From contig CANQMO010000016.1 in the NCBI GenBank assembly GCA_947624985.1, positions 1-64,000 on the forward strand: a stretch of DNA of 64,000 nt. Direction: 5' to 3'. The position numbers and the translations under genes are program-made. Below, piece after piece: positions 24,007 to 59,320 of the stretch (position 1 is the stretch's first letter; the number at the start of each line of letters is the position of its first letter). Source of the stretch: an uncultured Oscillospiraceae bacterium (lineage in GTDB: Bacteria; Bacillota; Clostridia; Oscillospirales; Oscillospiraceae). The notes beneath the pieces were generated by a model. The model saw only the letters and a program-made list of their open reading frames with translations. It was not told the origin of the DNA and did not search any database.

Positions 24007-24094
24007 TGGTGCCGGCGGCGGGGCTCGAACCCGCACGTCCACAGTGGACAAGGGATTTTAAGTCCCTGGTGTCTGCCAATTCCACCACGCCGGC
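24007..24094 (-). tRNA. tRNA-Leu(UAA), CCA encoded
   Basis: Minus-strand sequence begins GCCGGCGTGGTGGAATTGG and ends in GCCGGCACCA, with a 7-bp acceptor stem, long class II variable arm, T-arm GGTTCGAGCCC and anticodon loop CTTAAAA (anticodon UAA). Length 88 with encoded CCA. All domains pair properly. Confidence 0.95.
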
Positions 24095-38001: not shown

Positions 38002-38787
38002 ATGGACCGCTGGAAGACCGCCTGGAAAGGGATGCTCATCCTGGCCTTCTGGCTGGGCGTATGGGCGCTTTTGGCACGCCTGGTGGGCCGGGAGCTTTTG
38101 CTCCCCGGTCCCTGGCAGGTGCTGAAGCGCCTTTTGCTTTTGATGGGCACCGGGGACTTCTGGCGTATCACGGCGGTAAGTCTGGCCCGGATCGTGTGCG
38201 GCACGCTGGCGGCGGTGGCGGCGGGGGTCGTGCTCGCCGCGGCCACCTGCCGGTCCCGGTTCCTGCGGGCGGTGCTCTCGCCTTTGCTGACGGCGGTCAA
38301 GTCCGTGCCGGTGGCCAGCTTCATCCTGCTGACGCTCATTTGGGTGGGCCGGGACATCCTGCCCGGCGTGATCGTGTTTCTGATGGTGCTGCCCATCGTG
38401 TGGCAGAACGTGGCGGCGGGCATTGAGCAGACCGACCGCTCCCTTCTGGAGCTGGCCCGGGTCTACCGCTTCTCCCGCTGGCGGACGTTGCGGCGGGTGT
38501 TCGTGCCGGAGGTGGCGCCCTACTTCCTGGCCGCCTGCCGGACAAGCTTCGGCGTGGCCTGGAAATCCGGGGTGGCGGCGGAGGTGCTGACCGTGCCCCA
38601 GCGCTCCATCGGGCGGCAGCTTTTCGAGTCCAAGCTCTATCTGGAGACGGTGGACCTGTTCGCCTGGACGGTGGTGGTGGTGCTCTGCTCGCTGGCCATC
38701 GATAAACTTCTCACCGCAGCCATAATGATCATCGCAAGGCGAAAACGAATGTTTTCGCCGCCAAACGATACGTTTGGCGGCAAATGA
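38002..38787 (+). CDS. SsuC/TauC-like ABC transporter permease
   Basis: 261 aa, about six membrane segments, EAA-like loop (LLELARVYRFSRWRTLRRVF, about 148-167). It lies 7 bp after the binding-protein stop. The last 20 codons, including the stop, fall inside a palindromic repeat element (38724-38816), so the C-terminal tail (ARRKRMFSPPNDTFGGK) appears to be supplied by that element. Confidence 0.9.
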   Translation: MDRWKTAWKGMLILAFWLGVWALLARLVGRELLLPGPWQVLKRLLLLMGTGDFWRITAVSLARIVCGTLAAVAAGVVLAAATCRSRFLRAVLSPLLTAVKSVPVASFILLTLIWVGRDILPGVIVFLMVLPIVWQNVAAGIEQTDRSLLELARVYRFSRWRTLRRVFVPEVAPYFLAACRTSFGVAWKSGVAAEVLTVPQRSIGRQLFESKLYLETVDLFAWTVVVVLCSLAIDKLLTAAIMIIARRKRMFSPPNDTFGGK

Positions 38788-38816
38788 TCCAAGGATCATT
38801 TGCCGCGATGCTCATT
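38724..38816. repeat. 93-bp cloverleaf-forming palindromic element
   Basis: Outer stem AATGATCATCGC (38724-38735) pairs with GCGATGCTCATT (38805-38816), one mismatch. Inside, three perfect hairpins are laid end to end: GGCGAAAAC/GTTTTCGCC (38738-38759), GCCAAACG/CGTTTGGC (38760-38778) and GGCAAATGATCC/GGATCATTTGCC (38779-38804). Only two bases of the interior are unpaired outside the hairpin loops. Resembles a REP/MITE-like mobile palindrome, inserted at the permease 3' end. No obvious target duplication. Confidence 0.8.
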
Positions 38817-38861
38817 GTATTGACTATCTGGCAAAACAGCCATGCGAGGAGGTGACGGGCC

Positions 38862-39458
38862 GTGATACGGTTTGAAAACGTGACGCTGGCCTATCAGGGC
38901 CGCACCATCCTGCGGGACGTGACGATGCATGTGCCCCCCGGGGGGCGGGTGGCGCTGATGGGTCCCTCCGGCTGCGGGAAGACCTCGCTGCTGCAACTGG
39001 CGGCGGGTCTGAGAAAGCCCACGTCCGGCACGGTGACGTCAGGCGCCAGGCGGCTGGCCTACGCCTTTCAGGAGCCCCGGCTCCTGCCGCGGCTGACCGT
39101 GGCGCAAAACGTCAACGCGGTCCTGTCGGACGCCCCCGGCACCATGCCCCGGGCCATGGAGGTGCTGGCGGCGGTCGGGCTCGCGGAGGCGGCCGACAAG
39201 CTCCCCTATCAGCTTTCCGGCGGCATGGCCCAGCGGGTGAATCTGGCCCGGGCACTGGCCTGCGACGGGGACCTGCTGCTGCTGGACGAGCCCCTCAAAG
39301 AACTGGACGAGGCCCGCCGGGACGACATCCTCTCCCTGCTGAAGGAGCACACAAAAGACCGTACCCTGCTGGTCACCACCCACGACCCCCATGCGGCCCG
39401 GGTCCTGGCGGAGCGGGTCTATGTCTGGCGTGACGGCACATTCACACAACAACAGTAA
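38862..39458 (+). CDS. SsuB/TauB-like ABC transporter ATP-binding protein
   Basis: 198 aa, short for the family (usually 240 or more). Walker A GPSGCGKTS, Q-loop FQEPRLLPRLT, signature LSGGMAQRV and Walker B LLLLDEPLKELD are intact; the C-terminal extension after the H-loop (TTHDPHAA) is minimal. GTG start at 38862 follows GAGGAGGTGA. Separated from the permease by the palindromic element, which may lower its relative expression. Confidence 0.92.
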   Translation: MIRFENVTLAYQGRTILRDVTMHVPPGGRVALMGPSGCGKTSLLQLAAGLRKPTSGTVTSGARRLAYAFQEPRLLPRLTVAQNVNAVLSDAPGTMPRAMEVLAAVGLAEAADKLPYQLSGGMAQRVNLARALACDGDLLLLDEPLKELDEARRDDILSLLKEHTKDRTLLVTTHDPHAARVLAERVYVWRDGTFTQQQ

Positions 39459-58989: not shown

Positions 58990-59320
58990 ATGTTGTATCC
59001 TTCCTCCCGCTCCGCTGTTTACCGCCGGCGCACCGGCGGCTTTCCGGAGGGTGCGGCCCCCCGCTTGCGGGTCTGCCTGTTCCGCCCGGCAGCCAGCGAA
59101 ATTGGGTATGAAAAAAGCACGGTGCAAAACGCACTGTGCTTTCGTCAACTGGTATTTGGTTTATGAGAAAGGGGACCATGTTTCCATGATCCCCCGGTCG
59201 GTTGGGCTTTGGCGGGCGTCGCCTCTCCCGCATCTCTCGGGTTTCCCCTGTCATACCATCGGCGTGTGGTCGCAACGAACTTTACCACCTCAAAGCCCTT
59301 CTTATCCTATGCATATTTTA
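58990..59320. other. Gene-free stretch between nuclease and scaffold genes
   Basis: About 330 bases without a convincing gene, unusual in an otherwise packed cassette. It holds a terminator (59114-59142) and an imperfect palindrome GGGGACCATG / CATGATCCCC (59173-59194). It may be the scar of a lost gene. Confidence 0.6.
59114..59142 (-). terminator. Terminator inside the phage cassette
   Basis: On the minus strand AAAGCACAGTGC, loop GTTTT, GCACCGTGCTTT followed by TTT. It would end transcription arriving from terminase, portal and nuclease genes before the scaffold gene. Confidence 0.7.

Follow-up and report, generated by a model that had tools for sequence, protein, structure and literature searches.

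A REPIN pairs two palindromes of related sequence in opposite orientations, MITEs of the IS630/Tc1-mariner type insert at TA and duplicate that dinucleotide, and BOX repeats have a modular build. As far as the cited excerpts describe them, REPIN/RAYT repeats are small, palindromic, non-autonomous sequences that fold as single strands (PMC2817692; PMC3733652; PMC3116915), with REP palindromes bearing a tag of the GTAG/CGTC type (PMC3733652). Bacterial MITEs such as Correia/NEMIS, RUP, YPAL, and CIR appear in one partial text as gene-less, scattered sequences of approximately 100–200 bp with strong structure and mostly inverted-repeat ends, RUP inserting at TA with TA duplication and CIR consisting of two arms joined by a linker (PMC2229807). 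Excerpted accounts of IS607 describe serine transposition in which an overlap dinucleotide, GG, is matched between circle and target (PMC4058570), in elements without terminal inverted repeats (PMC6188088), and BOX and RUP of pneumococcus are presented, again in excerpt, as structured interspersed repeats of a Firmicute (PMC3049150).

Here, we analyze a repeat in 64,000 nucleotides of DNA (the window) from an uncultured Oscillospiraceae bacterium, whose genome assembly (G000) is 88% complete, and take it to represent a new family of structured, MITE-like elements that are non-autonomous and moved by an enzyme whose class we can only infer. Its related units form an inverted pair, as in REPINs (11 of 11 genus copies), but they are multi-hairpin units without a tag tetranucleotide, their outer ends read ATAATG and CATTAT and abut AT on both sides, and none of the 18 Y1 loci examined has a unit linked to it, although REP/REPIN and IS200/IS605 elements would be expected to have a linked Y1 HUH transposase; the comparison with REP/REPIN or other ssDNA-transposon ends made in an earlier note on this DNA holds for the layout only. 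The element is short and has terminal inverted repeats and a target duplication (AT), in keeping with MITEs in general, and CIR is nearest to it in form; it differs from the bacterial MITEs above in targeting AT rather than TA, with empty junctions that hold AT without TA, and in being built of two multi-hairpin cloverleaves, each of which is also found on its own. With IS607 it shares a single fixed overlap dinucleotide, low target specificity otherwise (weak YK/MR flanks), and precise joins, yet it has AT and symmetric repeats in place of GG and repeat-less ends; because IS607 elements are described as lacking terminal repeats (PMC6188088, in part), this amounts to a resemblance and does not make it a member of that family. 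BOX and RUP of pneumococcus differ from it in sequence, target, and taxon. A literature search at the level of titles and abstract openings returned no description of the element, and the portion of PMC2267715 consulted holds nothing on this bacterial group.

The cloverleaf within the permease–ATPase operon

The earlier note had reported, at the end of an ABC permease gene, a 93-bp cloverleaf too regular for chance, in which a 12-bp outer stem encloses three perfect hairpins with almost no unpaired interior bases. The fold is real and lies exactly where it was placed (Table 1), although the outer stem has 11 pairs and one mismatch; only 2 bases are unpaired inside the junction, and the three hairpins are indeed perfect. 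The RNA minimum free energy of −54.9 kcal/mol (z −9.1) was reached by 0 of 200 shuffles. Folded as DNA, positions 38722–38817 give z −9.2 and −9.7 for the two strands, which are about equally stable, and a further ssDNA fold gives z −10.9. A covariance model of the left unit (R1) scores the cloverleaf at 108.8 bits (E 4.7e-27), this copy being itself among the model's 39 rows; the left unit was found once within the window.

Table 1. Features of the window copy and of the genes on either side of it.
Feature	Position	Strand	Remarks
ABC permease ORF	38002..38787	+	PF00528, 4.4e-19; end and stop supplied by the element
AT at left junction (target dinucleotide)	38722..38723	+	directly 3' of GCAGCC
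Left unit, complete cloverleaf	38724..38816	+	AATG...CATT
Outer stem, 5' arm	38724..38735	+	pairs with 38805–38816; mismatch 38729/38811
Hairpin 1	38738..38759	+	9 bp, loop 4 nt; both-side changes in 3 of 8 counted pairs (helix 2)
Hairpin 2	38760..38778	+	8 bp, loop 3 nt; helix 4 of the covariation analysis
Hairpin 3	38779..38804	+	11 bp, loop 4 nt; helix 5 of the covariation analysis
Outer stem, 3' arm	38805..38816	+	
Inter-unit dinucleotide GT	38817..38818	+	
Right unit, beginning only	38819..38845	+	about 70 bp, including the right terminal repeat, missing relative to full-length copies
ABC ATPase ORF	38862..39458	+	PF00005, 6.7e-30

The 93 bp first delimited are exactly the left unit, and the repeat as a whole extends further, from 38722 (the AT) to approximately 38845, as a truncated copy of a ~190-bp element; the break in its right unit adjoins the ribosome-binding site of the ATPase gene. 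The estimate that the repeat supplies about 20 codons and the stop of the permease was close: it provides 21 codons (38722–38784) and the stop of the 261-residue ORF, whose C-terminus now reads IMIIARRKRMFSPPNDTFGGK up to the stop codon. That the insertion altered the protein's C-terminus is borne out by empty sites and by the C-termini of relatives. The element is absent from 29 of 29 other genus genomes in which the operon was compared, several of which have GCCGCC-ATC at the window junction; the permease stop and ATPase start overlap as RTGA in 27 of them, and in the other two (L135 and L137) the permease frame extends further into the ATPase gene. In the window, approximately 30 bp of the permease end are gone and the stop/start overlap is lost. 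It was at ...GCC-AT, near the end of the permease gene, that the copy went in; the right unit and the ~30 bp of permease disappeared on that occasion or afterwards. The exactness of insertion is seen at other sites, the window copy itself being without a right end.

Native permease coding sequence with chance palindromes would likewise give an ORF that runs through the repeat, as is seen here. The earlier note had held that conservation as permease coding sequence, with no other genomic copies, would speak against an insertion; the sequence is missing from all 29 orthologous loci, other copies exist in the genome, and the fold lies at z −9.1, so that this reading is refuted and has practically no chance of being correct.

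At gathering score, an Rfam search of the window placed no family over the element, and at the carrier loci L002, L262, L265, L266, and L269 it returned only sub-threshold microRNA/snoRNA matches and one tRNA. Elsewhere in the window, the same search found a skipping-rope RNA (RF02924, 52.2 bits) at 59204–59298 (−) and a tRNA at 24010–24094 (−).

Architecture, copies, and structural constraint

Full copies follow the plan AT-[unit 1: AATG...CATT]-GC-[unit 2: AATG...CATT]-AT over approximately 190 bp and read ATAATGATCATCGC...GATAATCATTAT—that is, two cloverleaf units between terminal inverted repeats, each unit a stem that closes one to three hairpins. For alignment, 100 distinct matches were reduced to 75 with at most two mismatches at both ends; the longer ones and two added loci made up 68 rows, with L110 and L124 removed for their different junction and L171 and L179 left out. 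In these rows, the inter-unit dinucleotide is GC in 54, GT in 10, AC in 4, and AT in none, and the right end is CATTAT in all 68, with ATAATG at the other end in 62. Copies with both ends measure 81–252 bp, below the size of a transposase gene, and the element is on that ground taken to be gene-less.

A tandem (head-to-tail) order of the units was replaced by an inverted pair in light of minus-strand matches to R1 and of shuffle alignments. R1 matches the minus strand of unit 2 at 43–62 bits in 11 of 11 full G000 copies. A unit rich in hairpins will score against its own reverse too, so these values were judged against the minus strand of the left unit itself, which gives 26–36 bits. In the genus consensus, alignment of the inner part of the left unit with that of the reversed right unit beats all 500 shuffles; in the direct sense it does not, the score being reached by 13 of 500. 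On these results, unit 2 is an inverted relative of unit 1 in the window's genus, which gives a REPIN-like layout whose outer ends are the terminal repeats. In the more distant genome G239, alignment of these inner parts beats shuffles in neither sense.

Units also stand alone, as left units with proper AT ends (L129 in G032 and L282 in G239), as right units (L075 in G000 and L299 in G239), and as further, degenerate units in G012. A simple reading would be that inner ends without AT are silent, so that the pair moves as one. At L262 (G184:C73), a head-to-tail pair of divergent elements is joined as ...TTC-AT-AACGATAATCG, a junction some three bases shorter than two full ends with one common AT. 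Two of the copies, L067 and L210, carry hairpin loops in the opposite sense to other aligned rows (CGACACG/CGTGTCG and CCAAGG/CCTTGG), as if inverted by template switching.

Searching the window's own genome, as the earlier note had proposed, recovered 12 further near-full copies at 89–93% identity, 11 of them with both ends (L008 is without the right one), together with short fragments of the ends and one copy bearing an internal deletion. The 193-bp element matches at least 22 of 99 genomes, namely G000 itself, 20 of the 34 further genomes of its genus, and a single one, G038, of the remaining 64; copy numbers per genome are lower bounds, with at most 8 candidates scored in each. Across 345 genomes of the order, and under stricter filters, the left-unit covariance model identified G000 and five others, all from other families. 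Copies in G239, G296, G184, G070, and G165 keep the plan ATAATG..[hairpins]..CATTG-AATGA..[hairpins]..CATTAT in other letters; the sequence changes, but the paired-cloverleaf plan is the same across several families of this one order. In G239, elements of 238 and 252 bp are 98–99% identical to each other, and by raw count 33 of 58 copies have their nearest relative within their own genome. These copies, their wide distribution, and the empty sites described below uphold the view of an inserted, mobile, multi-copy structured element.

A comparison of 84 copies by their flanks yielded two pairs with a common site: L039 and L104 share their orientation, whereas L035 and L036 face opposite ways. 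The latter pair (also L207, G033:C23, and L206, G034:C3) occupies the same nucleotide of a flavin-reductase-like gene, named by eye, in two species; like the permease end, this coding gene has been rewritten by the repeat, here at one nucleotide in both orientations. In G002 (C2:82694-84538; L034), two same-orientation copies flank ORFs that by eye resemble rplJ/rplL (L10 and L7/L12), and this stretch was rejected as an autonomous element because its ORFs are ribosomal-protein-like and not transposase. At L091 (G017:C60) and L221–L224, the insertion site lies within another repeat of many genus genomes, sometimes twice close together. Plasmid and phage records gave no match to the element; four pattern matches in viral contigs were all unrelated AT-rich sequence. 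A pattern scan of contigs returned 14 matches with an allowed gap of 120–150, shorter than the actual ~170, and the two inspected were both true variants.

Across the 68 copies, 97.9% of cells pair, and both sides change in 19 of 76 pairs and in 83 cells, a result that 0 of 500 shuffles reached; with the structure slid along the alignment, pairing falls to only 31–47%. Related sequences can beat shuffles without any structure, but the slid control and the retention of the fold at order distance agree. Counted as cells, G.T is more frequent than A.C (101 to 52; p 9e-5 if cells are independent), whereas distinct events stand at 37 to 32 (p 0.63). As a test for RNA this comparison was set aside, being suggestive by cells and not by distinct events, and it does not discriminate between the strands or between RNA and DNA.

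Empty alleles and the AT target

For 22 sites of intact copies, the two flanks were joined with one AT between them, and the resulting sequences were used to search 35 genomes. An equal-length match across the junction was obtained for 13 sites, no spanning allele was found among the matches listed for 8, and one (L091) lies within another repeat. The 13 sites provided 39 empty alleles, of which 31 have AT directly at the junction, 4 have AT after a shift or gap, 3 have AC, and 1 has TT. The first 20 alleles, mainly of equal length, comprise 17 with AT, 1 with AT after a shift, and 2 with AC; since choosing equal lengths favors clean sites, a second set of 19 mainly unequal-length alleles was taken, comprising 14 with AT, 3 with AT after a shift or gap, 1 with AC, and 1 with TT. 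None of the 39 alleles has a longer duplication. AT is therefore present once in 35 of 39 empty alleles and at both ends when the site is filled, which makes the insertion exact at AT; a 2-bp AT duplication and an insertion at AT without duplication give the identical outcome and cannot be told apart.

The flavin-reductase-like site has AT in four of five alleles (G000, G014, G009, and G001) and GT in G010, and in a second family the empty site of the G239 copy L276 is AT in both G306 and G296. The AC and TT of the four exceptional alleles, and the GT of G010, may reflect either later mutation or loose specificity. Among 56 full copies of the 84 distinct ones, the flanks have a pyrimidine at −2 in 47 and a purine at +2 in 53. 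Insertion thus takes the form YK-AT-MR → YK-AT[AATG...CATT]AT-MR, with a weakly palindromic target. A target duplication of 1–12 bp had been sought by flank comparison alone and rejected, none standing above shuffles, and the 2-bp AT became visible only with the empty alleles. Left and right flanks showed no convincing complementarity.

Candidate enzymes and rival explanations

We consider it very probable that the 93 bp form the left half of a mobile element of approximately 190 bp that is MITE-like, non-autonomous, and inserted at AT. A trans-acting enzyme would recognize the terminal repeats, and perhaps the folded units as well, and exchange strands at AT. Two joined ends would form the palindrome GATAATCATT-AT-AATGATTATC, a crossover site of the type suited to a serine-recombinase-like transposase with AT as its overlap dinucleotide, and such an enzyme is our tentative candidate. 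Nine lone ends examined in G000, G002, and G017, which are part of the ends listed for these incomplete genomes, had no enzyme with matching ends, many one-mismatch ends in G000 being left out of this check. In G239, no lone perfect end has a second perfect end within 1.5 kb, with 8 ends running into contig ends and with 2 perfect and 30 one-mismatch places left out. The missing enzyme is a findable target, because the plan is kept, insertion at AT is exact, and the G239 copies are near-identical; in the G239 group, the gene of an autonomous partner would be expected between ends of the form ATAATGATTAT...ATAATCATTAT.

A 2-bp duplication made by a DDE enzyme accounts for the data almost as well as serine-type exchange. 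The element would then be a MITE of an IS30-, IS5/IS427-, or IS630-like insertion sequence with AT as its target duplication, and the hairpins would only stabilize or shield transcripts. A fixed AT target is unusual for IS30-type elements, however, and empty sites need no TA (e.g., GCG-AT-CGAGG), which argues against IS630/mariner. No insertion sequence with these ends occurs among the lone ends examined in G000, G002, G017, and G239, and a structure conserved over its full length with covariation exceeds what such an element needs. On its side are the terminal inverted repeats, the small gene-less body, and a 2-bp duplication, all traits of known bacterial MITEs as excerpted from PMC2229807, and we regard this derivation as possible if somewhat doubtful.

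The folds themselves invite two further explanations. As a cis-acting RNA element (a 5' leader, or a processing or stabilizing structure), the repeat would have spread through its usefulness to the downstream gene, and the co-varying base pairs, the excess of G.T over A.C cells, and the position of copies all lend themselves to this: by two crude gene callers, one of them placed a probable gene start no more than 25 nt to the right of 17 of 75 copies and to the left of 6, and the other placed 30 of the 75 inside an ORF and, among 43 intergenic cases in which the right side was called, found the gene there to be co-directional in 37. The host gene is not constant, however, some insertions fall inside coding genes, empty sites are exact, distinct G.T and A.C events are nearly balanced, and no Rfam family covers the element, so that this origin is improbable. 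An ssDNA element moved by a Y1 HUH transposase (REP/REPIN-RAYT or an IS200/IS605 derivative), with the cloverleaf as the recognized single strand, would account for the stable ssDNA fold and for the REPIN-like inverted arrangement of the units, and Y1_Tnp is present in 12 of the 35 genomes of the genus and in 4 of 6 other carriers. Against it stand the AT at both junctions without a flanking tetranucleotide, the failure to find Y1 in G002 (97% complete, 6 full copies) or G184 (90%), and the outcome of the search for a linked TnpA_REP or Y1 transposase that the earlier note had suggested, which came up empty: no unit accompanies any of the 18 Y1 loci examined among 26 Y1 places found. The inverted-pair result led us to raise our estimate for the Y1 reading slightly, to a level that is still quite low. 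One of the 18 Y1 loci, L316, contains an end-like GATCATCATTAT, and a second Y1_Tnp copy in the window's genome (G000:C13:74662-75018) has an internal TGA.

The AT target also touches on promoters. Among 75 joined sites, a −10 box matching at least 5 of 6 positions is centered on the AT in 13 (forward) and 14 (reverse), against a background of 7.4% among 1050 oriented AT dinucleotides elsewhere in these flanks; a −10 box together with a −35 box of at least 4 of 6 is present in 10 of 150, against 1.6% in the control. This enrichment need not mean promoter targeting, because YK-AT-MR itself resembles part of a −10 box, and captured promoters were rejected as the cause of an orientation bias, since −10 matches are equal both ways. 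Because the element ends read ATAATG, insertion into TATAAT would rebuild the −10 box (T+ATAAT); a rebuilt box may keep the promoter alive and leave insertions there nearly silent, a testable idea of an insertion that hides itself. A broader proposal, which we hold to be rather unlikely, is an order-wide mobile class consisting only of modular cloverleaves, whose enzyme would recognize folded single strands or palindromic ends and exchange at the AT overlap, and whose −10-mimicking ends would make promoter insertions nearly silent while placing a folded unit in the transcript. Two G239 loci, L299 and L282, sit in TTGACA-17-TATAAT.
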